Assembly (NCBI RefSeq): GCF_945862485.1
Contig: NZ_CAMAYF010000012.1
Span: forward strand, 1-60,209
Length of the DNA stretch: 60,209 bases
Direction of reading: 5' to 3'
Source: Sphingorhabdus sp. EL138
GTDB taxonomy: Bacteria > Pseudomonadota > Alphaproteobacteria > Sphingomonadales > Sphingomonadaceae
The notes under the pieces are model-generated. The model made no database searches, was not told the origin of the DNA, and saw only the letters and a program-made list of their open reading frames with translations. Below, piece by piece: positions 14,024-53,044 of the stretch (position 1 is the stretch's first letter; each line of letters opens with the position of its first letter). The position numbers were made by a program, and so were the translations under genes.

Positions 14024-14039
14024 TCAACAACATTGTTGA
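14024..14039. promoter_or_regulatory. Operator 1, TCAACA-ACAT-TGTTGA
   Basis: A perfect 16-bp palindrome in the divergent region of monooxygenase 1 and the first ligase. Rightward, TTGACG (14035-14040) with a 17-bp spacer to TATTTG gives a promoter-like pair. Leftward, TTGATT with a 16-bp spacer to TAATTA does the same. A bound repressor would cover both -35 regions. One of seven copies of the motif in the window. Confidence 0.75.
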
Positions 14040-14097
14040 CGGCATCATTGGGCGTCGGTATTTGGAATTAATAGTTGGCGATTGAGAGGGAATGTGC

Positions 14098-15852
14098 ATG
14101 ATGGAGCCCAATGCCTTTTTGGATGACAAGGCTGCTGGAGTAACCATTAGCGAACTCGTGACTCCTGAAGCCCGCCAAGCGGCAATATCAGCTCGTTTTC
14201 CCGAGTGGATCCCGCGGACGATTGATGAGATGTTTGATGCCGCGGCCACCGAATTTCCCGATCGTCCTTACGTCATCACAGATGATCGGATATGGACTTA
14301 CCGAGATATGCAGGAGTGGTCACACCGTCTTGCAAGTGGATTAAGCGCAATAGGCGTAAAGCGCGGAGATCATGTCGCACTTGTATTTGCAAACTATCCT
14401 GAATTTGTTGCCCTAAAGCTTGCTATCGCCCGCGTAGGGGCGGTTGCCGTACCAATTAACATACTTAACCGTCGCGACGAGCTTGGGTATGTGCTGGCAC
14501 AGTCGGATGCCGTGCTGCTGATCACGATGAATACATTTCGCGACCTTGATTATCTCTCGATGTTAGATGAGTTAATACCAGGATGGGAGAAAAATGGCAG
14601 CAGTACAAAGTTGCCTCTCCTTCGCAACGTGATTGTTTTCTCGACCGATGGTCAGCCTAAGCGGGCGTCTGCTGCATATTTTGACGTTCTTGAATCGGGT
14701 CCGGCAACTAAGTTTGAAGTGAGCGGCGCGAGGCCGGATGATGTCGCCGACATCATCTATACATCTGGCACTACAGGTGCGCCGAAGGGGGTTATGCTGA
14801 CCCATGATCAGGTCCTTCGAACGGCTTATGGCAGCGCTTACGCCCGCGCATTTGAAGATGGCAGACGGATCGTCTTTTCGTTGCCCATGTACCATGTTTA
14901 CGGTTACGGCGAAGGGATGCTTCCGGTGATGTTTGTCGGCGGCGCGATAATCCCGCAACTGAAATTTGACGCAGCGGCGATGCTCACCGCCATTGAGCAA
15001 CACCGTGCGACCGATGCATTGCTTGTACCTACGATGACCATAGCTATGCTTGATACTGCGAAAGCCGGGGATTATGATCTTTCGTCGTTTTTTGCGGTCA
15101 TTTCGTCGGGAGCCCGTGCACCGGAGCGCGTGTGGAATGACATTTTTGCAGTTTTTGGCGTTTCCCAAATTTCGACCGGATACGGCATGACTGAAGTTAC
15201 GGCGTCTTCAACTGTCACGCAGCCAAACGATCCGATTGAACGGCTCCTAAACACAAATGGCCGGATGCGCGATGTGGGCGTTGCGGGCGATCCGGAGAAC
15301 TACCGTCGCCTTGTTAATTACCGAGTGGTTGACCCCGAAAGTGGTCACGTTTTGTTGCCCGGTTGTGTCGGAGAATTGCGGGCAAAGGGACTTGGGGTCA
15401 CACAGGGCTATTACAACAAGCCCGAAGAGACAGCAGCATTGTTCGATAGTGAAGGCTGGCTCCACACCGGGGATCTTGGGAAAATTGATGGCGATGGTTA
15501 CATCTATCTCGTCGGTCGGTTGAAAGAATCTTATCGTTGTGGCGGTGAACAGGTATTGCCTACGGAGGTGGAGGACCTGCTAACGTCGCATCCGTCGGTT
15601 TTGCAAGCCCATGTTGTACCGGTGCCGGATGTTCGGATGGGCGAAATCGGTGTCGCTTTTGTTGTTCCCGCACAAGGCGCGGCGGTGACCGTTGAAGAGC
15701 TTCTCGCGCTGGTTCAGTCGCGCATGGCCCGGTTCAAGGTACCCAAATATCTGTTTCTTGTGGATGCGGCGGAGATTCCCACCACCGCTTCGGGACGAGC
15801 AAAGAAATTTCAATTATCCGCAAAGGCGATCAGCATGTTGAATGCGATATGA
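14098..15852 (+). CDS. Acyl-CoA ligase (AMP-forming) 1, unusual A10 motif
   Basis: A 584-residue ANL-superfamily ligase that would activate a carboxylic acid intermediate to its CoA thioester via an acyl-AMP. Seen: P-loop IIYTSGTTGAPKGVML, aromatic motif STGYGMTE, and hinge HTGDLGKIDGDGYIYLVGR. The C-terminal A10 motif reads TTASGRAKKFQL: the usual catalytic Lys is replaced by Arg (R567), with Lys residues just after. Ligation of acid to AMP could be weakened or use a neighbouring Lys. ATG at 14098 lies 7 bases after GAGAGGG; ATGs at 14092 and 14101 are alternatives. It overlaps the following SDR gene (ATGA) and is probably controlled from the operator at 14024. Confidence 0.9.
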   Translation: MMEPNAFLDDKAAGVTISELVTPEARQAAISARFPEWIPRTIDEMFDAAATEFPDRPYVITDDRIWTYRDMQEWSHRLASGLSAIGVKRGDHVALVFANYPEFVALKLAIARVGAVAVPINILNRRDELGYVLAQSDAVLLITMNTFRDLDYLSMLDELIPGWEKNGSSTKLPLLRNVIVFSTDGQPKRASAAYFDVLESGPATKFEVSGARPDDVADIIYTSGTTGAPKGVMLTHDQVLRTAYGSAYARAFEDGRRIVFSLPMYHVYGYGEGMLPVMFVGGAIIPQLKFDAAAMLTAIEQHRATDALLVPTMTIAMLDTAKAGDYDLSSFFAVISSGARAPERVWNDIFAVFGVSQISTGYGMTEVTASSTVTQPNDPIERLLNTNGRMRDVGVAGDPENYRRLVNYRVVDPESGHVLLPGCVGELRAKGLGVTQGYYNKPEETAALFDSEGWLHTGDLGKIDGDGYIYLVGRLKESYRCGGEQVLPTEVEDLLTSHPSVLQAHVVPVPDVRMGEIGVAFVVPAQGAAVTVEELLALVQSRMARFKVPKYLFLVDAAEIPTTASGRAKKFQLSAKAISMLNAI

Positions 15853-16619
15853 CAGGTAGCTCAAACCAACCGCCACGCGTTGCGGTCGTTACGGGCGGCG
15901 CGCGGGGCATCGGGGCTGGAATTGCGCTGCGTCTGGCACAGGATGGGCATGATATTGCGGTAATTGACCTAGATGCCACAGCTTGCGCCGAGACCGTCCG
16001 AGACATCGAGGGACTAGGTCGCCGCGCTTTCGCTGTCGGCGCGAATGTTGCAGATGAAGCTGCGGTGCAGGAGGCAATCTCCAATATCGTTTCGGCCCTA
16101 GGACCTCCCACAATTGTCGTTAACAATGCTGGCATTTTGCGTGATCGAACCATTGGTAAAATGAGTATCGATGACTGGGATAGCGTCATCAATGTCAATT
16201 TACGCGGCACATTCTTAGTAAGCCGCGAAACACAATTTCACATGCGTGCAGCCGGCTGGGGCCGGATCATCAACTTATCGAGCACGGCTGCCCTCGGCAA
16301 TTTGGGCGAAAGCAATTATGCCGCGGCCAAGGCCGGCGTTCAGGGACTGACGAAAACGCTCGCAATCGAGTTGGGGCGATATGGTATCACTGCAAATGCC
16401 GTCGCGCCCGGTTTTGTGGAAACGGCGATGACTGCGGAAGTAGCGGAGCGAGTGGGCATATCATTCGATGAAATGAAGCAGCAAGCTGTCCGTGCAACGG
16501 TTGTTGGCCGCGTCGGGCAACCCGAAGACATTGCAAACGCGGTATCGTTTTTCGCAGATGAGCGTTCGGGCTTTGTCACTGGACAAATTCTATACGTAGC
16601 CGGAGCACCGCGCGGATGA
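15849..16619 (+). CDS. Short-chain dehydrogenase/reductase 1
   Basis: A 256-residue classical SDR. Seen: cofactor motif TGGARGIGAGIAL, NNAG, the catalytic Ser in NLSSTAALGN, and YAAAK as the YxxxK pair. It resembles FabG-type 3-oxoacyl reductases, but in this island it could oxidise a cyclic alcohol to the ketone used by a monooxygenase, or act on a hydroxyacyl-CoA. Translationally coupled to the ligase gene upstream (ATG 15849, stop 15852). Confidence 0.88.
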   Translation: MTGSSNQPPRVAVVTGGARGIGAGIALRLAQDGHDIAVIDLDATACAETVRDIEGLGRRAFAVGANVADEAAVQEAISNIVSALGPPTIVVNNAGILRDRTIGKMSIDDWDSVINVNLRGTFLVSRETQFHMRAAGWGRIINLSSTAALGNLGESNYAAAKAGVQGLTKTLAIELGRYGITANAVAPGFVETAMTAEVAERVGISFDEMKQQAVRATVVGRVGQPEDIANAVSFFADERSGFVTGQILYVAGAPRG

Positions 16620-16740
16620 GTATGGCGGCTGGATTACATACCGACGGCCAATTTACGAAAAACCGACGATGTGCTTCGCCGGTAACAAATGACGGATCTC
16701 ATGAGGGAGTAATCGTCGTCCTTCCGGTTGAAGCGGTATA

Positions 16741-17487
16741 TTGACGGTGGTCGGCAAGCTCAGCGGCAAGACGGCAATTGTAACCGGTGCTGCGCAGGGT
16801 ATTGGCCGCGCGACCGCCACTTTGTTTGCACAAGAAGGTGCACGTGTGATTGCGGTAGATGTCAACAGCGCCGCTCTGACTCAACTCCAGGCCGAGCATG
16901 GCTGCGAGGCCGTGGTGCTAAATCTCACTGACCGAAAAGCGATCGCTGAATTCGCCAATCGAACTGTCGCTGCCGATATCCTGTTTCTGTGCGCGGGCTA
17001 TGTTGCCTATGGTACTATCGAGACGTGCACTGACGACGAGTGGGATTTCTCTTTTGACCTGAATGTCACTGCCATGTTCCAGATGATACGTGCATTCATC
17101 CCGGGAATGATTGCCCGCAAAAGTGGATCAATCATTACCATGTCGTCGGTTGCAAGTTCAGTGCGGGGCGTCCCGAACCGTCTTGCTTATGCGTCTACAA
17201 AAGCAGCAATTATCGGCATGACAAAAGCACTGGCAGCTGATCACAGTTCGCAAGGCGTCCGTTGTAACGCGATATGCCCGGGAACCATTGACACTCCTTC
17301 GCTCGAGGCGCGGATGCGCGCTACGGGCGATTATGAAGCAACGCGCGCCGCATTTATCGCGCGCCAACCTGTCCAAAGGTTTGGGCTACCCAATGAAATT
17401 GCCGAACTTGCCCTCTATCTGGCGAGCGATTCATCATCGTTCGTAACTGGCCAAAGTCATGTCATCGACGGTGGTTGGTCAAACTGA
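16741..17487 (+). CDS. Short-chain dehydrogenase/reductase 2
   Basis: A 248-residue classical SDR with TGAAQGIGRAT, the catalytic Ser region MSSVASSVRGVP, YASTK (YxxxK) and the C-terminal FVTGQSHVIDGGW typical of family members that act on hydroxyacyl or cyclic alcohol substrates. It lies 121 bp after the previous SDR with the same direction. The start is unclear: TTG at 16741 opens the frame and GTG at 16747 is equally plausible; no good ribosome site precedes either. A small hairpin GATACC-GAAA-GGTATC overlaps its stop (17486-17501). Confidence 0.85.
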   Translation: MTVVGKLSGKTAIVTGAAQGIGRATATLFAQEGARVIAVDVNSAALTQLQAEHGCEAVVLNLTDRKAIAEFANRTVAADILFLCAGYVAYGTIETCTDDEWDFSFDLNVTAMFQMIRAFIPGMIARKSGSIITMSSVASSVRGVPNRLAYASTKAAIIGMTKALAADHSSQGVRCNAICPGTIDTPSLEARMRATGDYEATRAAFIARQPVQRFGLPNEIAELALYLASDSSSFVTGQSHVIDGGWSN

Positions 17488-17509
17488 TACCGAAAGGTAT
17501 CTCTTGTTA

Positions 17510-17525
17510 TCAACACGTATGTTGA
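17510..17525. promoter_or_regulatory. Operator 2, TCAACA-CGTA-TGTTGA
   Basis: A perfect 16-bp palindrome 66 bp before the start of the CoA-transferase gene at 17592 and after the SDR 2 gene. It marks a new transcription unit running from the CoA-transferase to the broken TetR gene. Confidence 0.75.
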
Positions 17526-17591
17526 ATATACTGACCAGATTATAAGGCGAGGTGCTGATTCCGATGACGATCAATAATTCGAGGCAGCATC

Positions 17592-18680
17592 GTGGTTAGC
17601 GTTTCACATTATCTTTCGGGCGTTAAGATTCTCGACTTGTCGCATTATGTTTCAGGGCCGTTTGCTAGCCTTTTGCTCGCTGACATGGGTGCAGATGTCA
17701 TCAAGATTGAGCCGCCAGCAGGTGACCCAATGCGGCATTTGGGGCCCGGTGATGCCAAGGGCGATCCGCTGTTTTACGGCGCTCTTAGTGCAGGCAAATC
17801 AGTGCTTCACCTTGATCTTAAATCTGATGAGGGCTCTGCCCGGATGCAAGAACTTTTGGTTGACACGGATATTTTGATCGAAGGCTTTCGTCCCGGCGTG
17901 ATGACACGTCTTGGACTTGATTATGCACGGCTAAGCGTATTGCACCCGTCGCTTATATATTGTTCGATAAGTGGATATGGCGTGGACGCTCCACTTTCGG
18001 CTGCCGCCGGGCATGACGCTAATTACCTCGCCACAAGTGGTATTCTGCATAGGAACGGCACGACTTCGCCACATTTTTTCGATCCGCCGATAGCCGATAT
18101 GTCGGGCGCTCTGTTCGCTGTGATTGCGATTTTAGGTGCGCTTAATGCACGAAGCCGGACGGGCAAAGGTGCGCATATCGAACTTGGCCTTGCCGATGCG
18201 TTGATGCCTCTTCAACTAATGCAGATCGCTGAATGGGGTGCGAATGCTACGGTGCCTACGCGGCAATCAACCTATTTGAATGGCGCTGCTGCATATTATC
18301 AGGTGTACGCAACCGCAGATGCAAAGCATGTTATGTTGGGGGCAGTTGAGCCTAAGTTCTGGCTAAATTTCTGTGAAGCGGCTGGTCGTCCGGATTGGGT
18401 TAAGCGGCATGATGACCAGCTACCGCAGCATCGGTTGATTTCTGAACTTTCAAACTTCTTTGAACAGCATGAAGCGGTGGCCATTTGTCGTCGTTTTGAG
18501 GGTATAGAATGCTGTCTTTCACCCGTTCTTGATTTGGGAGAGGCGCTTCAGTCGCCGCAAACATTGGCGCGCGGTTTGGTGAAATCGGACGGGGGGAGAC
18601 TGCAGGCGCTCTTCCCAGCTTATTTCGATGGAAAGACGACCACGGCGCGTCCCCCACTGCATAGGCTTGATCCCGCATGA
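17592..18680 (+). CDS. Family III CoA-transferase / racemase (CaiB-BaiF type)
   Basis: A 362-residue protein of the CaiB/BaiF family. Seen: ILDLSHYVSGPFAS and LADMGADVIKIEPP at the N-terminus, then GHDANYLATSG, whose Asp is the expected acyl-CoA/catalytic residue. The GHDxNYLAxSG form and the length near 360 resemble alpha-methylacyl-CoA racemases (AMACR), so it may epimerise a 2-methyl-branched acyl-CoA rather than transfer CoA. The start is GTG at 17592. Its last codon overlaps the next ATG (18677). First gene of the operon behind operator 2. Confidence 0.87.
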   Translation: MVSVSHYLSGVKILDLSHYVSGPFASLLLADMGADVIKIEPPAGDPMRHLGPGDAKGDPLFYGALSAGKSVLHLDLKSDEGSARMQELLVDTDILIEGFRPGVMTRLGLDYARLSVLHPSLIYCSISGYGVDAPLSAAAGHDANYLATSGILHRNGTTSPHFFDPPIADMSGALFAVIAILGALNARSRTGKGAHIELGLADALMPLQLMQIAEWGANATVPTRQSTYLNGAAAYYQVYATADAKHVMLGAVEPKFWLNFCEAAGRPDWVKRHDDQLPQHRLISELSNFFEQHEAVAICRRFEGIECCLSPVLDLGEALQSPQTLARGLVKSDGGRLQALFPAYFDGKTTTARPPLHRLDPA

Positions 18681-20272
18681 TACCTAACGTGGATGTCTTG
18701 ATTGTAGGCGCGGGGTTTGCCGGTCTTTATGCGCTCCACAAAATGCGGGAAATTGGCGTTAGTGCATCGGTTATCGAGATGGCCGACGATGTTGGCGGCG
18801 TCTGGTACTGGAACAAATATCCGGGTGCGCGCTGCGATGTCGAAAGTATGCAATATAGCTATTCCTTCTCGGATGATTTGCAGCAGGAGTGGCAATGGAC
18901 CGAACGTTATGCGCGCCAGCCGGAGATTTATGCGTACCTGCGTCATGTAGCGGACCGTTTTGACCTTCGACGATCAATTTCGTTTGGAACGACGGTGGTC
19001 TCCGCTACATTCGACGATGCTGACCAATGCTGGCGGGTCGGTACCGATAAAGGTGACAATATCGCTGCACGCTATTGCATCATGGCAAGTGGCTCATTGT
19101 CGGTATCGCGTTTACCAGATTTACCGGGCATCGAAAATTTTGCAGGGCCAGTGTTGCATACCGGAAACTGGCCCGACAATGTGCCAGATTTCGAAGGACA
19201 ACATGTCGCGGTCATTGGAACGGGATCGTCGGGGGTTCAGACCATTCCCCAGATTGCTCAGCGGGCCAAGCATCTGGTCGTATTTCAGCGTACACCGAAT
19301 TTCGTCGTTCCCGCCCGCAATCACCCGCTCGCCGAAGAATGGCAAGCGCGATGGAAGTCTGAATATCCAGAAATGCGGGCCCAAGCCAGGCAGGTGGGTA
19401 CCTTATATGACTTCAGTGATACGCCAGCGTTGTCGGTAAGCCCGGAGACGCGCGAAGCCGAATATCAGCGGCGATGGGAAAAAGGCGGCGTCAATTTCGT
19501 CCATGCCTTCAAGGATATCATGACCGATATCGCGGCGAACCAGACTGCTGCAGACTTTGTGCACGAGCGTATTCGTCAGGCGGTAAATGATCCTGTTATT
19601 GCAGAGCGGCTCTGCCCCAAAAATTATCCTTTGGGGGCTAAGCGAATTTGCGTTGGATCCGAATATTATGAAACCTATAATCGTGACAACGTGACTCTGG
19701 TGGATTTGCGCGAGACGCCGATTGTTAGCGTAAATGGGCAGTCAATTCGGACATCCGCCGCGAACCATGCAATCGACATTCTAATTTGTGCGACGGGTTA
19801 TGATGCCCTGACTGGGGCATTGATGCGCATCGATATCCGGGGGCAGGGAGGAGTATCGTTGGCGGAAAAATGGTCTGAAGGGCCGCGCAACTATCTCGGG
19901 CTCATGAGTGCTGAATTCCCCAACATGTTCATCATTACAGGTCCCGGGAGCCCCTCAGTTCTGGTAAATATGGTTGTCGGGATCGAGCAGCATGTCGATT
20001 GGATCGCCGATTGCATCTTGCATCTTAAGGCGACCGGTTCGGCGGGCATTGTACCGCGGGTTGATGCTGAAGATAAATGGGTTCAGCGCGTAAATGACGA
20101 AGCTGCATCGACATTATTTACGCAAGCCGACTCTTGGTATTTAGGCGCGAACATTCCTGGAAAGCCGCGCGTGTTCATGCCTTTCGTGGGAGGCATCGGC
20201 CGATATCGTGCTATTTGTGATCAAGTTGCTGACGACGCTTATCCCGGATTTGAAACTTTGAAGGAGCATTGA
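18677..20272 (+). CDS. Baeyer-Villiger monooxygenase (type I) 2
   Basis: A 531-residue FAD/NADPH monooxygenase. Seen: GAGFAG (residues 11-16), VWYWNKYPGARCDVES, fingerprint FAGPVLHTGNWP, second Rossmann GTGSSG, and the active-site Arg in LGAKRICVGSEYYETYNR. Very similar in layout to monooxygenases 1 and 3 of this window but clearly divergent in sequence, so these are paralogs of some age, each likely with its own ketone. Coupled to the CoA-transferase gene (ATGA overlap) and followed after 1 bp by an esterase gene, as expected when a lactone or ester product is hydrolysed next. Confidence 0.92.
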   Translation: MIPNVDVLIVGAGFAGLYALHKMREIGVSASVIEMADDVGGVWYWNKYPGARCDVESMQYSYSFSDDLQQEWQWTERYARQPEIYAYLRHVADRFDLRRSISFGTTVVSATFDDADQCWRVGTDKGDNIAARYCIMASGSLSVSRLPDLPGIENFAGPVLHTGNWPDNVPDFEGQHVAVIGTGSSGVQTIPQIAQRAKHLVVFQRTPNFVVPARNHPLAEEWQARWKSEYPEMRAQARQVGTLYDFSDTPALSVSPETREAEYQRRWEKGGVNFVHAFKDIMTDIAANQTAADFVHERIRQAVNDPVIAERLCPKNYPLGAKRICVGSEYYETYNRDNVTLVDLRETPIVSVNGQSIRTSAANHAIDILICATGYDALTGALMRIDIRGQGGVSLAEKWSEGPRNYLGLMSAEFPNMFIITGPGSPSVLVNMVVGIEQHVDWIADCILHLKATGSAGIVPRVDAEDKWVQRVNDEAASTLFTQADSWYLGANIPGKPRVFMPFVGGIGRYRAICDQVADDAYPGFETLKEH

Positions 20273-20273
20273 A

Positions 20274-21194
20274 ATGCCACTACATCCCCAATTACAGGCG
20301 ATTGTCGATGCAGCCGCAGCATTGCCGCCCATGGAAACTGTTCTACCCGCGACGCTGCGCGCTGGTTATGAGGCCCAGACCGCGCGGCTTGCCCGACCTG
20401 ATGTTGGCCATGTCGAAGATCGGATGATTCCCGGCCCGCGCGGCGATGTTCGAATCCGCATCTATCGGCCCGATATGCAAGACGGGCACGCAGTCGTTAC
20501 GTACTTCCATGGCAGCGCATTTGTCATTTGCAGCATCGACACGCATGATGTTATTTGTCGCCATCTTTGTTTGGTTTTGAACGCAGTTGTGGTTTCGGTC
20601 GATTATGGCCTAGCACCTGAAGCGCCGTTCCCGGCCGGACCAGACGACTGCGAAGCGGCGACAATATGGACGGCCGAAAACGCAACAAGCATAGGCGGTG
20701 ATCCGGCGCGGCTTATTGTTGCTGGCGACAGCGCGGGCGCAACAATGGCGACGGTGGTTGCGCGTAGACTGCGTGATGCTGGCGGTCCAAATCTTGCCGC
20801 GCAATTTCTGATCTATCCCGTGACTGATTATCCTGACCCTGCGCCTGCATCTTACCAAGAACGCGGCCAAGGGTGCGGGCTTACCGCCAGCGCAATGTGC
20901 TGGGGCTGGGACCTTTATATCCGTAATCAGGAGGACCGCTTTCATCCCGATGCGTCTCCGCTTCGCGTAGCTGATTTAAGTGGTCTGCCGCCGGCTTATG
21001 TAATTACGGCAGAATATGATCTGTTGCGGGACGAAGGCAAAGCCTATGCTGCGCGCTTATTGCAAGCGGGCGTCGATACTGCGTTGGTTCATTATGATGA
21101 CATGAATCACGGTTTCATGGGTATGGTTGGTGTCGTTGATCGCGCTGACCAAGCGATGATTGCCGCAAGCGGCTGGTTGGCAACCAAGATATGA
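20274..21194 (+). CDS. Alpha/beta hydrolase (HSL-type esterase or lactonase)
   Basis: A 306-residue hydrolase of the hormone-sensitive-lipase family. Seen: oxyanion motif HGSAF in place of the usual HGGGF, nucleophile GDSAGATMA, acid in AEYDLLRDEG, and His in MNHGFMGM. It lies directly between two flavin monooxygenase genes, so hydrolysis of the ester or lactone they make is the likely job. The HGSAF variant changes the oxyanion loop. Cytoplasmic; no signal peptide. Confidence 0.87.
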   Translation: MPLHPQLQAIVDAAAALPPMETVLPATLRAGYEAQTARLARPDVGHVEDRMIPGPRGDVRIRIYRPDMQDGHAVVTYFHGSAFVICSIDTHDVICRHLCLVLNAVVVSVDYGLAPEAPFPAGPDDCEAATIWTAENATSIGGDPARLIVAGDSAGATMATVVARRLRDAGGPNLAAQFLIYPVTDYPDPAPASYQERGQGCGLTASAMCWGWDLYIRNQEDRFHPDASPLRVADLSGLPPAYVITAEYDLLRDEGKAYAARLLQAGVDTALVHYDDMNHGFMGMVGVVDRADQAMIAASGWLATKI

Positions 21195-22489
21195 CTCTGC
21201 ATTTTGCTATCATCGGTGCCGGGGCAGGTGGGCTTTGCGCCGCGAAACATCTGACTGCACAAGGTATTGATGTGACTATCTTCGAGGCCGGATCAAGGGT
21301 CGGGGGGCTTTGGGTCTACAACAATGATAGCGGAATGAGCCCCGCATATAAATCTCTGCACATTAATTCGGAAGCAAAAGTCAGCAGCTTCGAGGATTTT
21401 CCGTTTCCGGATGACGCGCCGCTTTATCCCGACCATGCTGAAATGTGTCGTTATTTTGAGCGTTATGCTGCGCATTTTGATCTGACGCGAAGGATCAGAT
21501 TCAGTAGCCGCATTTTGTCAGTGACGCCTATCAATGGAAAATTCGGTGTCGCGTTTGAAAACGGCGCAACCGAAATATTCGATGGGGTCGTTGTGGCTAG
21601 TGGTCACCAGAGTGTCCCGCGCCATCCTCCTCAAATTGAAGGTTATGGCGGCGACTATATCCATGCCCACACGTATCGTGTTCCGACACCCTATGCGGAC
21701 AAGCGCGTGTTGGTAATCGGACCCGGCAACAGCGGCGTCGATATCGCTGCGGACATTTGCACTGTTACCGCACACACAGTCCTATCGGCGCGCTCGCCTG
21801 TACTGATAATGCCCCGAATGATGTTCGGTGTTCCGAATTCGCGGACATTGTCAAAACTCGAACGATCTTTTTTGCCCTGGAGAGTGCGTGTTTGGATCCG
21901 CACAACATTGACGCGATTTTTCCATGGCCGAATGGAGCAATGGGGCTTTCGGACCCCTAAAACGCGAACGCACCCAATAAGCCATCCGACTTTGATATCG
22001 CAAATTGCCTGGGGACGGGTGACAGTCAAACCAGGTATCGCTGCCATTGAGGGTAAGGTGATCCGGTTTACCGATGGCAGCGCAGACACCTTTGATGCGG
22101 TAATTGCCGCGACGGGATATAATACCGCGATCCCATTCCTGCCGGATGAAATTTCTCCCGTTGAAAGTGAAACTACGCATGTCGCGCTTTATAATCGCGT
22201 CGCTCATCCACGCATCGACGGTCTTTACTTCATTGGCTTTTTCGATGTGACCGGAGGAAGCAACATCCGGATGATGGACGATCAAGCGGAATATATTGCA
22301 GCGCTTGTTACCGGTGCAGTGAAGCGTCGATCCGAAAACGAGATGCTGTCCGCAATCGAGGAGGAACGGGTGTGGGCGGCGCGGCAGTTTCCGGATTCAC
22401 CGCGCTACGGGTTAGAACTCGACCCCCGCCGCTATCGAAAACGCCTTGCGCTGGACTATGCGCGTAATAACGCTAAACGGTCCGCCTGA
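21191..22489 (+). CDS. Flavin-containing monooxygenase (FMO type)
   Basis: A 432-residue FAD/NADPH protein shorter than the BVMOs of the island. Seen: IIGAGAGGL (GxGxxG, residues 9-14), GGLWVYNN, the FMO-like segment YGGDYIHAHTYRVP standing in for the fingerprint, second nucleotide motif VIGPGNSGVDIA, and ATGYNTAIPFL. FMOs oxidise N or S atoms, and some (type II BVMOs) also ketones. Coupled to the esterase gene by ATGA at 21191. The true substrate is open; a second Baeyer-Villiger step is possible. Confidence 0.87.
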   Translation: MTLHFAIIGAGAGGLCAAKHLTAQGIDVTIFEAGSRVGGLWVYNNDSGMSPAYKSLHINSEAKVSSFEDFPFPDDAPLYPDHAEMCRYFERYAAHFDLTRRIRFSSRILSVTPINGKFGVAFENGATEIFDGVVVASGHQSVPRHPPQIEGYGGDYIHAHTYRVPTPYADKRVLVIGPGNSGVDIAADICTVTAHTVLSARSPVLIMPRMMFGVPNSRTLSKLERSFLPWRVRVWIRTTLTRFFHGRMEQWGFRTPKTRTHPISHPTLISQIAWGRVTVKPGIAAIEGKVIRFTDGSADTFDAVIAATGYNTAIPFLPDEISPVESETTHVALYNRVAHPRIDGLYFIGFFDVTGGSNIRMMDDQAEYIAALVTGAVKRRSENEMLSAIEEERVWAARQFPDSPRYGLELDPRRYRKRLALDYARNNAKRSA

Positions 22490-22490
22490 C

Positions 22491-28515: not shown

Positions 28516-28521
28516 GTTCAG

Positions 28522-31128: not shown

Positions 31129-31130
31129 CT

Positions 31131-37590: not shown

Positions 37591-37593
37591 GCA

Positions 37594-40834: not shown

Positions 40835-40837
40835 CGG

Positions 40838-42016: not shown

Positions 42017-42043
42017 GTGGGTTGCTCCAAAACAAAGTTGAAA

Positions 42044-43650: not shown

Positions 43651-43653
43651 CGT

Positions 43654-45603: not shown

Positions 45604-45685
45604 AATTGCGCTGTCATCTGCTTTCTGCCTGCACCGCCTCAAAGCGCGCTTCGATTGCAAAAAATTATCCGCAAAAATGAAATTG

Positions 45686-45701
45686 TCAACATATACGTTG
45701 A
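45686..45701. promoter_or_regulatory. Operator 5, TCAACA-TATA-CGTTGA
   Basis: One mismatch from the shared palindrome, 83 bp upstream of the HAPMO-type gene. On the minus strand TTGACA (45689-45684) with a 16-bp spacer to TAATTT gives a promoter-like pair overlapped by the operator. The intergenic stretch 45604-45979 holds this site and operator 6 and no gene. Confidence 0.7.
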
Positions 45702-45871
45702 TAATATTTATAAGTTGGTCACTGGACATAGTGAAATATCGAAATGTCTGGATCTAATCGAGTATGTTAAAAATATGACTTATAAACAATACTTTAAAGG
45801 CTATAATTGATAGAAATTTGACTTGACGCATTCGGTTGTGCCTATCCAAGACACGTGCTTTCTAAGCCTAT

Positions 45872-45887
45872 GCAACAGAGGTGTTGA
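45872..45887. promoter_or_regulatory. Operator 6, GCAACA-GAGG-TGTTGA
   Basis: One mismatch from the shared palindrome, 92 bp before the second TonB receptor gene. Rightward, TTGACG (45883-45888) with a 17-bp spacer to CTACAT is promoter-like, again with its -35 region inside the operator. Confidence 0.65.
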
Positions 45888-45979
45888 CGAGCCAGAATTT
45901 ATCTGGCTACATTACTGTTGATAAGAGTGGCGACTCGATATGCCACCGAAAAACAAGCTTAGTTGGAGAGGGAGTCGAG

Positions 45980-48571
45980 ATGAGGAAAAGCAGAACGTTA
46001 TTGTACACAGCTGCCGCGGTTGGCCTGATGGCCATAAATACCGCAGCACACGCACAAAATGAACAAAGCACGTCGGACACTCAAGCTGGCCTTGGCGAAA
46101 TCATTGTGACGGCAACCAAACGCAACGAAAACCTTCAAGATGTGCCGGTCGCGATAACTGCCATCACGACTGAGCAGCTAACCAAGCAGGGTGTCTTTTC
46201 GACCTCGGACCTAAACAACTCTATTCCTAACCTTCAGGTCAGCTCTGCCTATGGCGAGACGCAACCCAACTTCACGGTCCGCGGGATCGGTGTGGGCACA
46301 GAATACAACTCTAACGCGGCCTCGCCAGTTGGGGTGTATGTGGATGAAGTTTACCAGTCATTTCGCGCAAGTCATGGCCAACAATTGTACGACCTTGAGC
46401 AAGTCGAAGTTGTTCGCGGTCCGCAAGGAACGTTGTTTGGCCGAAACACTACCGGTGGTGCGATTAACTTTATTACACGGAAGCCACGTTTAACGGGTTC
46501 CAACGGGCACGCGACGATCGGATACGGCTCATTCAATCGCATAAGCGCGCTTGGCGCGATTGAGGTAACGCCCGTCGAGGATAAGCTGGGGATCCGCATT
46601 GCGGGTAGTTATGTGAATTCCGACCCTTACGTAAAAAATATCCAACCGGTAGGCTTGATCAAGTCTAATCCTAATGTCCCAGATAATGTTGCATTCGGCG
46701 ACCAGAATGCTGGAATTTCGCCCGGCGGACATGAAACTTGGGGGCTTCGTGGCCAAATCAGGTTTGTCCCCACTGAAACGATTGACATCAATTTTAAAGC
46801 TTATGTTGCTCAGTCCGTGGGCGGGCAAGACTCGCCTCAAAATCACGGGCCATCCCTGACCGATGACACCATAAACTTAGCAGACTCTGCTTTTGGCTTT
46901 TTTTACACGCCACTTGCCAGCACTTTGTTTGGCAATGGGCGCGATTTGACCCGATTTCTGCCACCTGCATATAGCGCGAAGGGTCGGGGTCTCTCTGCCA
47001 GGGAAATCGAGGGTAACTCAATTGGTACCGCCGAAACAAAAACCTTTGGCGCAGTTCTGAATGCTAAATTTGAGTTGTCTGACAGCGTCAACCTGACTTC
47101 AATCACTGGGTTTGATAGGACACGAAACGGATTGCTGCCACGTATTGATTGCGATGGCACACCTTATAATGTGTGCTCAATCGGGTACGCTTCATTGTCC
47201 AAGAGCTTTAATCAAGATCTTCGCCTCGATTTTTCAGCGGATCGATTTAAAGCCATTGCCGGCGTCTATTACGGCTGGGATAAAATTGTCACAAACAATA
47301 CGCCAGACTTCTACGGCTTCTTAAGCGACGTAAACGCCGCTATTGGAAATCCCAAAAATTACTTCAATCCAGCGGGTCTTGGGCGTGAAGCCGGTTTAGC
47401 AACTGCATTGAAGGCAAAGCAGGACTATACCCAAGAGCGTAAATCGATAGCCATATATGGCGAAGCAAGTTACGAACTTACCGAGAGTGTAAAATTCACC
47501 GCCGGGCTCCGTTACACGAAAGATAAGTTTGCTTATCTTGACGCCCTCACCACATTTTTTGATGATACCGGTGCACCACGACTTTACACTGTATCAGACT
47601 ATGCTCCAGGCGGCGTCTTCCAAAAATACTTTATTGGTGATTCCGCAGCGCTGGATGCAAGCATTAAGCCTCTTAACCGCCGCGATGGTTCAAACGCGCT
47701 AACAGGCCGTGCAATCCTGGACTGGAAGGTCAACGACGACGTTCTTCTTTACGCAAGCTACAGTCGTGGCTATCGTGGCGGAACATATAATGGCCTTGCA
47801 TTCCAGTCCGCAGCGCAAGTTTACTTTGTGGAACCGGAAAAAGTTGACGCCTTTGAAGTCGGCATGAAAAGCCGGTTCTTTGACAACCGCCTCCAGTTTA
47901 ACGCCTCAGTGTTTCATTATAAATATGCAGGTCAACAGCAGCAATTGCTCGATCCAAGCTCAGTTACATTCTTGATTAACCTTGACGGCAAACTTACGGG
48001 TCTTGACGCTGAACTCATCTTTGCAGTGACAGATGACATCCGCTTAAATGCTGGCTTTGGATATCTTGATAGCAGCTTCAACAGTGGTTCGTGTCCGACT
48101 GCGCCCATTAATGGTACGCCACCTCAAGTAGGTAATTGCATTTCCACAGCAGGTGGTAAAATTGACGTCGGCGGAAATCCGTTTCCTTATGCCAGCAAAG
48201 CGTCAGGAAATATTGGCATCGACTGGGATGTTGCCAAGACGGAATCAGGAACATTTACGGTTCATGCTGACACCAGTTACACCGGACGCTACTACTACGA
48301 CGTTTTTGGATCCTATGACTATGTGGGACCTCAAGGTAGTTCTGTGCTTTCCGGTAGAGGGCCGCTAGGTGAAGGGCAAGACCCGTATTGGCTGATTAAC
48401 GGGCGAATTTCCTATACCACCGACAGCTTCACTATTGCTGGCTTTGTTAAAAACCTGACCGATAAACTCTATTATCCAAACGCGATCAACGTTGAAGGAA
48501 GCTATGGTAGCGATTATCGAATTCGCGCAGCACCGCGCACCTTTGGAGTGGAACTCTCCGCAAAATTCTAG
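45980..48571 (+). CDS. TonB-dependent outer-membrane receptor 2
   Basis: An 863-residue receptor: signal peptide (residues about 1-26, ending AAHAQ), TonB-box-like GEIIVTATKRNENLQDVP, plug with VRGPQGTLFGRNTTGGAINF, and a barrel ending in the terminal Phe of GVELSAKF. Of the two receptors this is the more typical sphingomonad catabolic type. ATG at 45980 was chosen because a GGAGAGGGAG ribosome site and the signal peptide start there; an upstream GTG at 45881 would add 33 non-signal residues and run over operator 6. A strong terminator follows, separating it partly from the PQQ dehydrogenase gene. Confidence 0.93.
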   Translation: MRKSRTLLYTAAAVGLMAINTAAHAQNEQSTSDTQAGLGEIIVTATKRNENLQDVPVAITAITTEQLTKQGVFSTSDLNNSIPNLQVSSAYGETQPNFTVRGIGVGTEYNSNAASPVGVYVDEVYQSFRASHGQQLYDLEQVEVVRGPQGTLFGRNTTGGAINFITRKPRLTGSNGHATIGYGSFNRISALGAIEVTPVEDKLGIRIAGSYVNSDPYVKNIQPVGLIKSNPNVPDNVAFGDQNAGISPGGHETWGLRGQIRFVPTETIDINFKAYVAQSVGGQDSPQNHGPSLTDDTINLADSAFGFFYTPLASTLFGNGRDLTRFLPPAYSAKGRGLSAREIEGNSIGTAETKTFGAVLNAKFELSDSVNLTSITGFDRTRNGLLPRIDCDGTPYNVCSIGYASLSKSFNQDLRLDFSADRFKAIAGVYYGWDKIVTNNTPDFYGFLSDVNAAIGNPKNYFNPAGLGREAGLATALKAKQDYTQERKSIAIYGEASYELTESVKFTAGLRYTKDKFAYLDALTTFFDDTGAPRLYTVSDYAPGGVFQKYFIGDSAALDASIKPLNRRDGSNALTGRAILDWKVNDDVLLYASYSRGYRGGTYNGLAFQSAAQVYFVEPEKVDAFEVGMKSRFFDNRLQFNASVFHYKYAGQQQQLLDPSSVTFLINLDGKLTGLDAELIFAVTDDIRLNAGFGYLDSSFNSGSCPTAPINGTPPQVGNCISTAGGKIDVGGNPFPYASKASGNIGIDWDVAKTESGTFTVHADTSYTGRYYYDVFGSYDYVGPQGSSVLSGRGPLGEGQDPYWLINGRISYTTDSFTIAGFVKNLTDKLYYPNAINVEGSYGSDYRIRAAPRTFGVELSAKF

Positions 48572-48581
48572 ATGATTAAAG

Positions 48582-48622
48582 AGACACCCGCGCTGATAGT
48601 TCTGCGCGGGTGTCTTTCCTTA
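48582..48622 (+). terminator. Rho-independent terminator after TonB receptor 2
   Basis: A perfect 12-bp stem AGACACCCGCGC / GCGCGGGTGTCT (48582-48593 and 48604-48615) with a 10-base loop, followed by TTCCTTAT. It lies 10 bp after the receptor stop and 33 bp before the next gene. Confidence 0.8.
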
Positions 48623-48654
48623 TGGCGAGGTAAATTGAGACAGGACGGATAATT

Positions 48655-50742
48655 ATGCGCAAGCTTTGTGTGGTCTTAGCCATGGCTTTTTTGGTTTCGT
48701 GCGGGTCCGGGTATGAGGATGGCGTGATAGACACTTCCCGCTTGGACGGCGCGGCTTCCGAAACCCAAAACTGGCTGACATACGGCGGTACCTACGAAGA
48801 ACAGCGTTATAGTGGTCTGGAAGAAATAAACGCTGAGACGGCTAGCAGCCTCGGCCTTGAATGGTCCCATGAGTTTGACACGGCGCGTGGGTTAGAAGCC
48901 ACGCCGCTTGTGGCAGACGGGGTAATCTACACAACCACTGCATGGTCCAAGGTTCATGCGCTTGATGCGACCACGGGTAAGCTGCTGTGGAAATATGATC
49001 CGAAAGTACCGGGGGAAACAGGTTTCAAGGCTTGCTGTGATGTCGTCAATCGCGGCGCAGCAATTTATAATGGCAAAATTTATTCAGGTACGTTGGACGG
49101 GCGCCTGATTGCACTTGATGCCAAGACGGGCAAGCTTGTTTGGTCCGTCGTCACCGTTGACCAGAGCAAGCCTTATACGATCACGGGCGCACCTCGAATC
49201 GTCAAAGGCCGCGTGCTTATTGGCAACGGCGGCGGTGAATATGGTGTCCGTGGTTATGTGTCTGCATACGACGCAGAAACGGGTAAGCAGGCGTGGCGCT
49301 TTTATACGGTTCCGCCGGCGAAAGGCGCCAAGCCTGACGGAGCGGCGTCCGATGATATTATCGCCAAAATGCAAGGCACTTGGGATGGCGATTACACCAA
49401 ATTTGGTGGCGGCGGCACCGTATGGGACGCAATTGTTTACGACAAGGATTTCAATCAAGTCCTTATCGGCGTGGGCAATGGATCACCATGGGATCACCGT
49501 GTCCGTTCGAATGGAAAGGGCGACAATCTGTTCCTGTCGTCTGTGGTTGCGCTTGATGCCGATACGGGCAAATATAAATGGCATTACCAAGGAACACCCG
49601 CCGAAACTTGGGATTTCACACAGACACAGCCGATCATCCTCGCATCGTTGAAAATTGGTGGGGCTGATCGCAAGGTCATGATGCAAGCACCGAAAAATGG
49701 CTTTTTCTACGTTATAGACCGAAGCAACGGCAAACTCGTTTCGGCGAAGAATTTTGTACCGCAAAATTGGACTTCGGGCGTGGATATGAAAACCGGCAGA
49801 CCTATAGAGATGCCAGGTGCACGTTATGAAAATGGACCTTTCGTAGCTAATCCCTCAGGCCACGGCGCCCACAACTGGCAGCCTATGGCGTTCAGCCCGA
49901 AGACCAATCTGGTATATATTCCCGCACAGGAAGTGCCGATGGCTTACCAATCTGATGCGCCATTTGTCGGTCGAGAAGGGGGTTGGAACCTTGGCGTGAA
50001 CCTAGCAATTAATACCCTACCTGACGACGAGGCTGGACTGAAAGCCATCCGTGCGATTCTGAAAGGCGTCTTGATTGCTTGGGATCCCATAAAGCAAAAG
50101 GAAATGTGGCGGGTCGACCATGGTGGTCCTTGGAACGGTGGCGTGCTGGCAACTGCTGGCGGCTTAGTTTTCCAAGGCAATGCCAAAGGCGAGTTTAATG
50201 CATTTAACGCAACCAGCGGCAAGAAACTGTGGTCATTTGACAGTAAGATTGGGATCGTAGCACCTCCGGTTAGCTACTCGGTTAACGGCAAGCAATATGT
50301 TGCGGTGATGGTCGGTTATGGTGGTGGCTATGGCGTCGCTAGCCCCTTCACAGAAAATATGGGACCACGGCCCAATGGTCGACTGCTGGTATTCGCGATC
50401 GGCGGGAAGGCACCATATAAGGTAGAACGTATGGATCCCGGTCCGGCGGTTGTCGTGAAGGACAAATGGTCCACTGCTACCGTCGCCAAGGGGGCACAAA
50501 TTTTCGAGACCACCTGTTCTGTATGCCATGGAGGCACAGCACGATCTTCCGGCGTCTTGCCGGATCTGCGTCGCTCGCCGGTACTGGCTGACCAGAAATT
50601 GTGGCAAGAAGTGGTCCATGATGGAATACTGAAGGACAATGGTATGGTTGGCTTCAGCAAATGGCTGTCGCGTGAAGATGTGGAGGCTACCCGCGCCTAT
50701 GTTGCTGGTCGAGCGAAAGTCCTGGCGACCAAGGGCATCTGA
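48655..50742 (+). CDS. PQQ-dependent alcohol dehydrogenase with cytochrome c domain (quinohemoprotein)
   Basis: A 695-residue periplasmic dehydrogenase of the type II quinohemoprotein class. Seen: an N-terminal signal with a lipobox-like LVSC ending at residue 16, which suggests lipid anchoring; the vicinal Cys pair ACCDVV (C127-C128) that contacts PQQ; the catalytic region ETWDFTQTQPIIL; repeated Trp blades; and a C-terminal heme c motif CSVCH (C621-H625) with a Met in DNGMVGF as likely second ligand. It oxidises alcohols to aldehydes or ketones and passes electrons to the respiratory chain. An aldehyde dehydrogenase gene follows, forming a natural alcohol-to-acid pair. Confidence 0.92.
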   Translation: MRKLCVVLAMAFLVSCGSGYEDGVIDTSRLDGAASETQNWLTYGGTYEEQRYSGLEEINAETASSLGLEWSHEFDTARGLEATPLVADGVIYTTTAWSKVHALDATTGKLLWKYDPKVPGETGFKACCDVVNRGAAIYNGKIYSGTLDGRLIALDAKTGKLVWSVVTVDQSKPYTITGAPRIVKGRVLIGNGGGEYGVRGYVSAYDAETGKQAWRFYTVPPAKGAKPDGAASDDIIAKMQGTWDGDYTKFGGGGTVWDAIVYDKDFNQVLIGVGNGSPWDHRVRSNGKGDNLFLSSVVALDADTGKYKWHYQGTPAETWDFTQTQPIILASLKIGGADRKVMMQAPKNGFFYVIDRSNGKLVSAKNFVPQNWTSGVDMKTGRPIEMPGARYENGPFVANPSGHGAHNWQPMAFSPKTNLVYIPAQEVPMAYQSDAPFVGREGGWNLGVNLAINTLPDDEAGLKAIRAILKGVLIAWDPIKQKEMWRVDHGGPWNGGVLATAGGLVFQGNAKGEFNAFNATSGKKLWSFDSKIGIVAPPVSYSVNGKQYVAVMVGYGGGYGVASPFTENMGPRPNGRLLVFAIGGKAPYKVERMDPGPAVVVKDKWSTATVAKGAQIFETTCSVCHGGTARSSGVLPDLRRSPVLADQKLWQEVVHDGILKDNGMVGFSKWLSREDVEATRAYVAGRAKVLATKGI

Positions 50743-50768
50743 TAGATACCGGATTAGGAGAGTTTGTG

Positions 50769-52187
50769 ATGGAAGCGCGCTACGACATGCTGGTGAACGG
50801 TAAAATGATGGGCGGTAGCCGAACGGTTGATGTTGTTGATCCGGCGACCGAAGAAGTGTTTGCGGTCTGTGCCTGTGCATCGCGTGAAGAAATTGAAGAT
50901 GCCGTAACCGCTGCCGCGGCCGCGTTCCCAGCCTGGTCCGCGACGTCGATCGATGAGCGCCGTGCTGTGCTCATTAAAATGGCTGAAGCCATTGAGGCGA
51001 ATATCGAATCCATTGCCCGTACGCTGACTCGTGAACAAGGAAAACCAACGGCCGATGCGCAAGGCGAGGTCGGCGGGGCCGCTTATTTTCTGCGCTATTA
51101 TGCTGGGCTGGAAATTCCTGTCGAGTTGATTGAAGACAGCGAAACTCGGCGGATCGAACTACACCGCCGCCCGCTTGGTGTGGTTGCTGCGATCGTGCCG
51201 TGGAATTTTCCTGTGCTTACCGCAGTAAATAAGGTCGGCGCAGCGTTAATTACGGGGAACACCGTGGTAGTAAAGCCAGCTGCTACTACGCCGCTGGCGA
51301 CATTGCAAATCGCAGCACTTTGGAGGGATATCGTTCCAGCAGGCACAGTGAACATTGTGACCGACAAGAATGACCTTGGAGATGTGCTCACGAGTCATCC
51401 GATGGTACGTAAAGTCAGCTTCACGGGATCGACCAGTACAGGCATGAAGGTCATGTCGTCAGGCTCCGGTACGCTCAAGCGAATGACATTGGAACTTGGC
51501 GGGAATGATTCCGGCATCGTTCTCGACGACTGTGATCCAGATACAGTCTCACAGCAACTGTTCGATTCGGCCTTCATGAACAATGGTCAAGTTTGTATCG
51601 CGCTAAAGCGTTTGTATGTGCATGACAGCAAGTATGACGCCATCTGCGCGAAACTCGCTGAAATTGCAAAAGCAGCTATTGTCGGACCGGGCTCGCAACA
51701 GGGCACACAGCTTGGTCCTGTGCAAAACCGTGTTCAATTCGACAAGCTGAAAGCCCTGATCGAGGAAACACGAGCCGAAGGAACAATAATCGCAGGGGGT
51801 GACAGCCCCGACGGTCAGGGGTACTTCATTAATCCCACAATCGTGCGTGATATTTCGGACAATGCGCGCCTGGTTACCGACGAACAATTTGGCCCGGTTT
51901 TGCCGGTTATGCGCTTTTCAGACGTGGATGACGTTGTCGCACGCGCGAACGATAGTAGTTTTGGCCTTGGCAATTCGGTTTGGTCGTCGGACAGCGAAAA
52001 AGCCGGCGCAGTTGCTGCGCGGCTCGATTCCGGCACCGTGTGGATCAACAAACACGGAGACATCGGTCCTGATACCCCCTTCGCCGGAGCGAAAATGTCA
52101 GGCGTCGGTATCGAAATGGGGATGCATGGCTTGCTCGAATTTACGCAGGCCAAGGTTATGAACTTTGCAAAAATGGCAAACGCTTAA
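50769..52187 (+). CDS. NAD(P)-dependent aldehyde dehydrogenase
   Basis: A 472-residue ALDH with VPWNFPVLTAVNKV, the general base Glu in LELGGNDSG (E242) and the nucleophile Cys in NNGQVCIALKR (C276). It oxidises an aldehyde to the acid in the cytoplasm. ATG at 50769 was chosen because AGGAG precedes it; a GTG directly before it adds one residue. It follows the PQQ dehydrogenase gene by 26 bp and ends 4 bp from the convergent TetR gene. Confidence 0.92.
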   Translation: MEARYDMLVNGKMMGGSRTVDVVDPATEEVFAVCACASREEIEDAVTAAAAAFPAWSATSIDERRAVLIKMAEAIEANIESIARTLTREQGKPTADAQGEVGGAAYFLRYYAGLEIPVELIEDSETRRIELHRRPLGVVAAIVPWNFPVLTAVNKVGAALITGNTVVVKPAATTPLATLQIAALWRDIVPAGTVNIVTDKNDLGDVLTSHPMVRKVSFTGSTSTGMKVMSSGSGTLKRMTLELGGNDSGIVLDDCDPDTVSQQLFDSAFMNNGQVCIALKRLYVHDSKYDAICAKLAEIAKAAIVGPGSQQGTQLGPVQNRVQFDKLKALIEETRAEGTIIAGGDSPDGQGYFINPTIVRDISDNARLVTDEQFGPVLPVMRFSDVDDVVARANDSSFGLGNSVWSSDSEKAGAVAARLDSGTVWINKHGDIGPDTPFAGAKMSGVGIEMGMHGLLEFTQAKVMNFAKMANA

Positions 52188-52191
52188 CTGG

Positions 52192-52851
52192 CTAAGGTCC
52201 GTAAGGACTTTCGAGCCCAGCCAGCAACAGTTCGGCATAGGTTTTGCCGATTTCTTCTGCACTGACATCGCTTCGATCGGGCCGGAACCAGCGATGGGTC
52301 CACCCGACGATGCCTAATATACCATATGCAACGACACGAGATGATCCCACTTTACGTAGGCTGTTATCGGCATAGCCCTCTTCTATGATTGAAATGACCG
52401 CATCAACGGTCTCGGCATTGATTTTGCGCATAGACTTTGACCATTCAGTGCGTGCATCGCTCACATGGCTGAGGTTTTCGCGAATATATATGTAAAACAG
52501 GGGGTAATTGTCTCCGTAGGAGGTCATCAATGTATTGACCAAGTCGCGCAATTTGCGGCGAGGGCTGACGCCGCTTGATTCTATTTGTTTGATGAGTTCG
52601 AGGTTGCGTTCGACCACGGTCCGCACAAGCTCATCAAACAGCTCCTCCTTTGATGAAAAATAGTAATAGAGTGACGCTCTATCGATATCGAGTTCCGCTG
52701 CTATCGCACTGATGCTGGCGCCCTTAAAACCTAACCGGTTGAAAACGCGTATAGAGGCTTCGGCTATTTCTTTTCGACGCGCTTCATATGAAGCGCTGGA
52801 ATCGTCTTTTGCAAGTTTGCGGCGTTTCCCGATGTTGCTCACTGGTTTCAT
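52192..52851 (-). CDS. TetR-family transcriptional regulator
   Basis: A 219-residue TetR regulator: basic N-terminus, helix-turn-helix ASISAIAAELDIDRASLYYY followed by FSSKEELFDELV, and a helical ligand domain with FYIYIRENLSHVSD. It is divergent from the MaoC/thiolase operon, and a perfect copy of the 16-bp palindrome (53029-53044) lies between. It is the only intact regulator gene in the island and therefore the best candidate for binding all seven operators; an acyl-CoA or lactone may be the inducer. This assignment is inference. Confidence 0.9.
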   Translation of the reverse strand: MKPVSNIGKRRKLAKDDSSASYEARRKEIAEASIRVFNRLGFKGASISAIAAELDIDRASLYYYFSSKEELFDELVRTVVERNLELIKQIESSGVSPRRKLRDLVNTLMTSYGDNYPLFYIYIRENLSHVSDARTEWSKSMRKINAETVDAVISIIEEGYADNSLRKVGSSRVVAYGILGIVGWTHRWFRPDRSDVSAEEIGKTYAELLLAGLESPYGP

Positions 52852-53028
52852 AATCGTCTCTAGTTTCCATCTTATACTCGCATCTGCAAGCGCGGCCCCA
52901 ACATCACGAATTTGTCAGGACGTTTACCGTACTGCCATTATTCCGGTGCCTTGCGCAATCAGCGATTCAGCCGATATAGTTGTCGCAGACAACCAGGTTA
53001 CAGTGTTTGCACTAACATCGCAGCATTT

Positions 53029-53044
53029 TCAACAATAGTGTTGA
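53029..53044. promoter_or_regulatory. Operator 7, TCAACA-ATAG-TGTTGA
   Basis: A perfect 16-bp palindrome between the divergent TetR gene and the MaoC operon, about 80 bp before the MaoC start. Its position fits autoregulation of the TetR gene plus control of the operon. The rightward TTGACG at 53040 lies inside the operator, but the matching -10 is weak. Confidence 0.75.

Follow-up and report, generated by a model that had tools for sequence, protein, structure and literature searches.

Is the catabolic island of Sphingorhabdus sp. EL138 (12315-55754 on contig NZ_CAMAYF010000012.1 of assembly GCF_945862485.1) governed by a single regulator, and, if so, by which one? The question is raised by a 16-bp palindrome, TCAACA-N4-TGTTGA, which recurs across the island and also adjoins a gene for a TetR-family protein (52192-52851, minus strand). 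Judging from sequence comparison, the palindrome is very likely the operator of that protein, which would act as an autoregulated repressor of about 33 genes and would be released by an intermediate of the pathway it controls. The whole stretch analyzed (60,209 nucleotides, hereafter the window) is one contig (C12) of the 55 that make up a 2.18-Mb genome, whose assembly is 96.6% complete, and holds 2.8% of its bases.

Copies of the palindrome in the window, the genome and the genus

All seven positions that a preliminary description of this DNA had reported turned out to be exact to the coordinate, as did its sorting into four perfect copies and three with one mismatch. The perfect predicted operators lie between the divergent genes for a Baeyer-Villiger monooxygenase (BVMO1) and acyl-CoA ligase 1 (14024-14039), ahead of a CoA-transferase/BVMO2 operon (17510-17525), between the divergent BVMO3 operon and the genes for a short-chain dehydrogenase/reductase (SDR3) and a glutathione S-transferase (GST) (35290-35305), and between the divergent tetR and MaoC operon (53029-53044, conserved in three genomes of the genus, G005, G024 and G016). 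Those with one mismatch lie ahead of TonB receptor 1 (27150-27165), ahead of the operon for BVMO4, enoyl-CoA hydratase (ECH), hydroxyacyl-CoA dehydrogenase (HBDH), acyl-CoA dehydrogenase (ACAD), acyl-CoA ligase 3 (ACS3), SnoaL, a beta-keto acid cleavage enzyme (BKACE) and a cyclase (45686-45701), and ahead of the genes for TonB receptor 2, a pyrroloquinoline quinone (PQQ) alcohol dehydrogenase and an aldehyde dehydrogenase (ALDH) (45872-45887). A probable eighth, weak operator with two mismatches (45906-45921), 34 bp from the one at 45872 and overlapping a -10-like TACATT, had been overlooked. That every copy lies between genes holds overall, with two reservations: the copy at 45686 falls inside the longest open reading frame (ORF) of BVMO4 and the one at 45872 shares bases with the first GTG in the TonB ORF; since relatives align only from residue 26 (BVMO4) and residue 46 (TonB), the true starts probably lie downstream of both copies. 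The 27150 operator is enclosed by a 40-bp palindrome (27138-27177, one mismatched pair), which is longer than a single TetR site requires.

At up to two mismatches, the window holds 12 matches, as compared with a shuffle mean of 2.28 (standard deviation 1.30), and none of 100 shuffles reaches 12. When palindromes with six-base half-sites set 0-12 bp apart were counted blindly, the motif came out as the commonest in the window (four copies, the next having two), and all four perfect copies in the genome are inside the window. Chance as the origin of the sites was rejected on these three counts. The eight one-mismatch copies in the genome are split between the window (three) and other places (five, all within mechanically called ORFs). 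The preliminary description had named equal frequency elsewhere as what would speak against a regulon; with the perfect motif run over the genome, no such frequency was seen.

Within the genus, a full TetR gene is present in 4 of 37 genomes (G000, G005, G024 and G016), and another, G034, has a broken relative of 66% identity. The four TetR-bearing genomes have 14 perfect copies, 13 of which are in the TetR-bearing island and one (in G016) inside an ORF; the 33 other genomes have nine, every one of them inside an ORF. As all ten copies outside islands lie inside ORFs, a general role of the perfect palindrome in promoters of the genus was rejected. Between the sites and their counterparts in relatives, none of 180 core positions is changed, as against 5 of 60 in the spacer and 107 of 1137 in the flanks, a count that comes from 15 non-independent site alignments with three relatives, after alignments below 100 bits had been dropped. 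An identical TetR is encoded by Sphingomonadales bacterium 28-55-16, and one of 92% identity by Sphingorhabdus sp. D14.bin.29. In G034 (L048), the decayed tetR relative (7222-7788) has a GST orthologue nearby whose frame is open, and a one-mismatch copy (9755-9770) lies near the remnants of the pathway and of tetR; as this copy precedes no identified gene, it is not used as support.

A sample of 396 genomes from the order gave TetR matches at E <= 1e-30 in 11, nine of which belong to other genera. In those nine there are 14 perfect copies, 11 of them no more than 10 kb from a TetR match. A single perfect copy was found in 12 genomes of the family that have no TetR match (12 of the 14 such genomes in the sample).

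Related TetR loci in other phyla

Contigs of 84,980 species were scanned with the TetR, and the results given here for such loci cover the best 80 of 530. The main set consists of 36 loci (L092-L127) with 43-76% TetR identity, beyond the two nearest kin (L090 and L091), from which it is set apart by rank and title only; it includes near-duplicates (L096/L097 and L093/L118), and some of its loci are records that also occur in the order sample, which means that the two sets are not independent. A perfect copy is present in 21 of the 36 loci and at least one copy with no more than one mismatch in 31; over the 586,413 bp of these loci, perfect copies number 32 and those with one mismatch 54. The TetR proteins of the 40 weakest loci (L130-L169, 27-33% identity, Bacillaceae and others) belong to the same protein family, but no perfect copy and only three one-mismatch copies were found in their 761,601 bp. 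Two loci in between, of Pseudomonas hunanensis (L128, 31%) and Pandoraea terrae (L129, 33%), do have perfect copies and were excluded from both groups; their copies adjoin flavin reductase genes and, in L128, also P450 and CoA-ligase genes.

When palindromes were counted blindly in the 36 loci, the motif came first by number of loci (21), tied with the overlapping GTCAAC-N6-GTTGAC (21), and the same two take the top places in the 11 actinobacterial loci. The half-sites are spaced by 4 bp in 32 of 33 pairs in these loci and in 4 of 4 in the window (spacings of 0-12 considered). Perfect copies are present in seven actinobacterial isolates, namely Nocardioides jensenii, N. kribbensis, Cryobacterium suzukii, Actinomadura physcomitrii and three Actinomycetospora. 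In Actinomycetospora endophytica (L123), the sole perfect copy of a 7.0-Mb genome sits at the TetR locus. The 5.1-Mb genome of N. jensenii (L122) has five, two on a short contig with the TetR gene and three on another contig, where one directly precedes an orthologue of MaoC1 (71%), followed by MaoC2, DUF35 and thiolase, a second directly precedes an orthologue of BVMO1 (58%), and a third (12876) has no identified gene after it; the motif alone has thus located more genes of the pathway. On N. jensenii contig C108 (L173), two copies, one perfect and one with one mismatch, form a pair 22 bp apart (12854-12891), after which the only nearby island match is an alpha/beta hydrolase of 42% identity (14044-14880).

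Plasmids carry the combination too. That of Rhodococcus ruber YC-YT1 (L171) has a TetR of 37% identity and, within 40.7 kb, five copies, three perfect and two with one mismatch; some of these copies are near genes annotated as acyclic terpene utilization (AtuA), a possible clue to the substrate. On the 242-kb mobilizable plasmid pSFD01 of Sphingopyxis sp. FD7 (L170, L078-L081), a perfect site at 49639 lies directly ahead of an SDR gene followed by a GST gene, a layout comparable to that at 35290. The same plasmid has four TetR-matching places, one of them partial and containing a stop, as well as duplicated pathway modules, some with insertion sequences between them, and in one module a luciferase-like monooxygenase replaces BVMO4.

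Placement before genes, mode of control and rival explanations

A matrix built on 85 sites in the 36 loci (copies no more than one mismatch from the consensus, at any location) ranks the seven window sites first to seventh (scores from 24.3 to 17.2, the lowest being that of 45872) and the site at 45906 eighth (13.1), followed by a score of 8.2; the best score over 30 random windows was 17.16. In the 36 loci, the matrix gives 98 hits, none of which is inside the blocks aligned to island proteins, even though these blocks make up 49% of the DNA; the hits were chosen blind to position and not to sequence, and the blocks, after trimming by 30 bp, represent island-like proteins only. Ahead of orthologues of particular genes, a site is found for BVMO1 in 10 of 12 cases, TonB1 in 6 of 6, MaoC1 in 7 of 9, BVMO4 in 5 of 7, TonB2 in 2 of 2 and ALDH in 1 of 3, and none is found before SDR1 (0/13), MaoC2 (0/9), thiolase (0/8), ACS3 (0/13) or SnoaL (0/7). 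The sites tend to favor positions ahead of the first genes of operons.

At 27150, a half-site makes TTGACA, with GATACT 17 bp further on; at 45686, it makes TTGACA-16-TAATTT on the minus strand; the 17510 operator occupies the spacer between a -35-like TTGTTA and a -10-like TATACT; and the sites at 45872 and 45906 bracket a TTGACG-18-TACATT promoter. The earlier suggestion that half-sites supply the TTGA of -35 elements gained moderate support, as the TTGA words in the sites (n=14) outscore 26 other intergenic TTGA words as promoters (P = 0.0016), a comparison that uses an E. coli-type consensus and hand-set gene borders and serves as supporting evidence only.

Several observations weigh against an operator read by this TetR. 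Five of the 36 loci have no copy at up to one mismatch, 6 of 12 TetR places in the order sample have none even at up to two mismatches in the surrounding 2.3-3.6 kb (the other six do), and no perfect copy is near the gene in G061 and G221, whose TetR proteins have 60 and 59% identity. A site precedes just 10 of 31 TetR and 3 of 16 acyl-CoA ligase 1 (ACS1) orthologues in the 36 loci, and none of three orthologues of the CoA-transferase (CaiB); it is also found before ACAD (6/16), ECH (5/15) and HBDH (3/15), which are inner genes in this window, so the operon layout seems to vary. Two copies inside ORFs elsewhere in the genome score 18.4-18.6 and 17.4, as compared with 17.2 for 45872, and those in TetR-less relatives up to 24.9, and the matrix by itself cannot, therefore, separate real sites. 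The 12 copies at up to one mismatch in the genome are within the range of 2-16 seen across those 33 genomes of the genus where a full TetR is missing (G005 and G024 have 20, and G016 has 11), and one-mismatch copies alone are ordinary background; a looser 18-bp pattern occurs exactly at six places in the genome (five of them in the window) and with one mismatch at 23 (two in the window), which leaves 22 such places outside. The four gammaproteobacterial loci (56-71% TetR identity, three of the four with a perfect copy) are all contigs of metagenome-assembled genomes and possibly misbinned; the perfect copies in seven actinobacterial isolates mean that misbinning fails to explain the spread over phyla. 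Finally, repression as the direction of control is assumed.

The protein of 52192-52851 matches Pfam TetR_N (4.2e-14) and TetR_C_24 (7.1e-15), and among its nearest solved relatives by profile are 3vpr, 2ibd and KstR2 (the last at E 3e-20 to 4e-20). It combines a helix-turn-helix TetR_N domain with a C-terminal domain of the ligand-binding type, as a TetR regulon would have it, next to promoter palindromes of which one adjoins tetR, and regulator and operator occur together across genomes, with exceptions. That one TetR acts through the sites of one island, as the preliminary description had proposed, gains strong comparative support from their joint occurrence in the genus, in other genera and in other phyla. 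The sequence of the site, its conservation, its company with tetR and its placement ahead of operons are established by comparison of genomes; binding, repression, autoregulation, the type of ligand and the class of substrate are what we infer from it.

According to this model, a TetR dimer would bind (R)TCAACA-N4-TGTTGA(Y) sites, which overlap promoters or lie right next to them, and would thereby silence about 33 genes, tetR among them, arranged in some ten transcription units (a count of plausible operons, which makes the earlier estimate of about 40 genes somewhat high). The substrate would enter via the TonB receptors and its breakdown would start, after which an intermediate would bind TetR and free the operators; as with KstR2, this ligand would most likely be an acyl-CoA thioester. 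An acyl-CoA is our best guess for the ligand by analogy, given the TetR_C_24 domain, the presence of KstR2 among the solved relatives, and the response of KstR2 to its effector, HIP-CoA (PMC8700777). The substrate would be a ketone or an alcohol that Baeyer-Villiger chemistry opens, perhaps one of terpenoid or steroid-like structure.

Could the protein bind the sites as an activator, or as a regulator of both kinds? Some TetR-family proteins do activate (FasR is an activator in NCBIfam), and the direction of control is not readable from sequence alone, yet the sites overlap -35-like elements or fill the spacer between -35 and -10, the usual geometry of repression, and the repressor KstR2 is among the solved relatives; we regard activation as unlikely. 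It is very unlikely that some other regulator binds the palindrome, with the TetR of 52192 being a bystander. The obvious candidate, a second TetR-type sequence inside the island (22503-23093), the place of which is open across 226 codons in G005 and G024, has a broken reading frame in the window (or an assembly error there), and close orthologues of it were found in only 2 of the 38 loci L092-L129 (L097, 72%, and L099, 63%), the remaining matches being at 21-29%; on its broken frame and its few orthologues it was rejected as the binder, and across the lineages tested the palindrome tracks the TetR of 52192. As for a palindrome that arose by chance or is a structural repeat, such as a hairpin or the end of a mobile element, with no regulatory protein behind it, the 40-bp palindrome around the 27150 site and the apparently recent exchange of part of the island might suggest as much, but the copies differ in spacers and flanks, the core stayed free of changes while the flanks did not, no shuffle matches the count in the window, and the same core stands beside TetR in other phyla, all of which makes this explanation extremely improbable.

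The island and known systems of a similar kind

The repressor proposed here, which would bind all the sites (as its TetR_N and TetR_C_24 domains and the co-occurrence of the motif suggest), would preside over a varied gene set. From left to right, the island comprises BVMO1, near steroid and phenylacetone monooxygenases by similarity (12315-13946, minus strand); acyl-CoA ligase 1, SDR1 and SDR2 (14092-17487, plus); a class III CoA-transferase, a BVMO2-type flavoprotein, an alpha/beta hydrolase and a flavin monooxygenase (17592-22489, plus, assigned from Pfam only); TonB-dependent receptor 1 (24583-27057, minus); a BVMO3-type flavoprotein, ligase 2, cyclase 1 and proteins of the APH, Rv3169 and acetyl-CoA hydrolase/transferase families (27313-35239, minus); SDR3 and GST (35361-36808, plus); BVMO4, ECH, HBDH, ACAD, ligase 3, SnoaL, BKACE and cyclase 2 (36814-45729, minus); TonB receptor 2 with the PQQ alcohol and aldehyde dehydrogenases (45881-52187, plus); tetR (52192-52851, minus); and, finally, a MaoC-like protein, a second small protein with no Pfam match, a DUF35/OB protein and a lipid-transfer-type thiolase (53103-55754, plus). 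In functional terms, this amounts to four BVMO-type flavoproteins (BVMO2 and BVMO3 being assigned from Pfam alone) and one more flavin monooxygenase, acyl-CoA ligases and beta-oxidation enzymes, two TonB receptors, the PQQ alcohol dehydrogenase and the aldehyde dehydrogenase, two cyclase-family proteins, BKACE and the MaoC-DUF35-thiolase block. No palindrome site was found at the valine-degradation genes to the left of the island. A block at about 16000-34000 is 99.3-99.9% identical to G005 contig C18, as compared with 84-90% for 4-12 kb and 40-48 kb, a contrast that suggests recent transfer or recombination.

Taken together, sites, genes and TetR very probably form a real TetR regulon, one of a well-known kind, new as far as the literature was searched and of unusual breadth across phyla. 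No TetR regulon with TCAACA-N4-TGTTGA was found in the open-access literature searched, nor any lead to the substrate in that on Baeyer-Villiger, terpene and sphingomonad catabolism; that on Sphingopyxis FD7 gives an origin from industrial cooling water, with no substrate seen. Tentatively, the TetR and its operator might be the common switch of a modular, horizontally mobile pathway for an abundant natural ketone or alcohol, compatible across Proteobacteria and Actinobacteria. If so, separately acquired catabolic modules would fall under one control at once. The findings also suggest that operator and regulator move with the modules, which bears on how pathways are controlled after transfer. 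An uncharacterized TetR family gains a well-supported operator and gene set across phyla, the regulon delimits the genes of a seemingly undescribed degradation pathway, and the operator could be used as a handle toward the inducer and, hence, the substrate.

KstR2, which controls the lower part of cholesterol degradation, is likewise a TetR repressor of a catabolic regulon, with low sequence similarity to the 52192 TetR and another gene set, and its operator is AnCAAGnnCTTGnT. Other TetR repressors resemble the proposed system in arrangement and differ from it in the operator. AtuR/RdmA of acyclic terpene utilization in Pseudomonas acts on a CoA-based catabolic cluster through two operator copies, of the sequence AGCAAGCGCTTGG/CCAAGCGCTTGCT (PMC9973270), and EdcR of estrogen degradation in the sphingomonad Caenibius tardaugens uses one operator type, TnnCnnTACnAnTnGTAnnGnnA, at several promoters of its cluster, with estrogens as inducers (PMC8700777); neither operator is the one conserved here. 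The mycobacterial regulator of branched-chain keto acids, BkaR, is an autoregulatory TetR dimer with a 16-bp palindrome at several operons, but its operator, GTTA(N)T(N4)A(N)TAAC, is different and its pathway another one (PMC3920632), and MbdR of 3-methylbenzoate degradation in Azoarcus, with several operators and 3-methylbenzoyl-CoA as its partner, recognizes ATAC-N10-GTAT, which also differs from the palindrome (PMC4424350). The progesterone pdc cluster has both a BVMO and a TetR, and its paper never uses the term "operator".

The preliminary description had stated that the motif matches no operator of the KstR, PsrA/FadR or FabR types. The motif also differs from the operators of AtuR, EdcR, BkaR and MbdR, but it has more of a precedent than that description supposed, as its half-sites, at a spacing of 2 bp, are bound by SACE_5754, which is a TetR-like repressor from Saccharopolyspora erythraea (PMC6346578). 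SACE_5754 represses three scattered genes, one of them for an FAD-binding monooxygenase, and regulates neither itself nor its neighbor; its consensus is TYMAGG-n2/n4/n11-KKTKRA, and the spacer of the site in question is 2 bp, as compared with 4 bp in the window, just as its gene set differs from that of the island (PMC6346578). The 2-bp-spaced TCAACA-n2-TGTTGA has no copy in the window and none in the 36 loci. Site A of SACE_5754 was found in 1 of 390 genomes of an actinobacterial family (G799), and this genome has 24 matches to the TetR profile, all of them weak (best E 2e-22). The binding of SACE_5754 to TCAACA-n2-TGTTGA, as seen by DNase footprinting and the electrophoretic mobility shift assay (PMC6346578), indicates that a TetR-like protein is able to read these half-sites.

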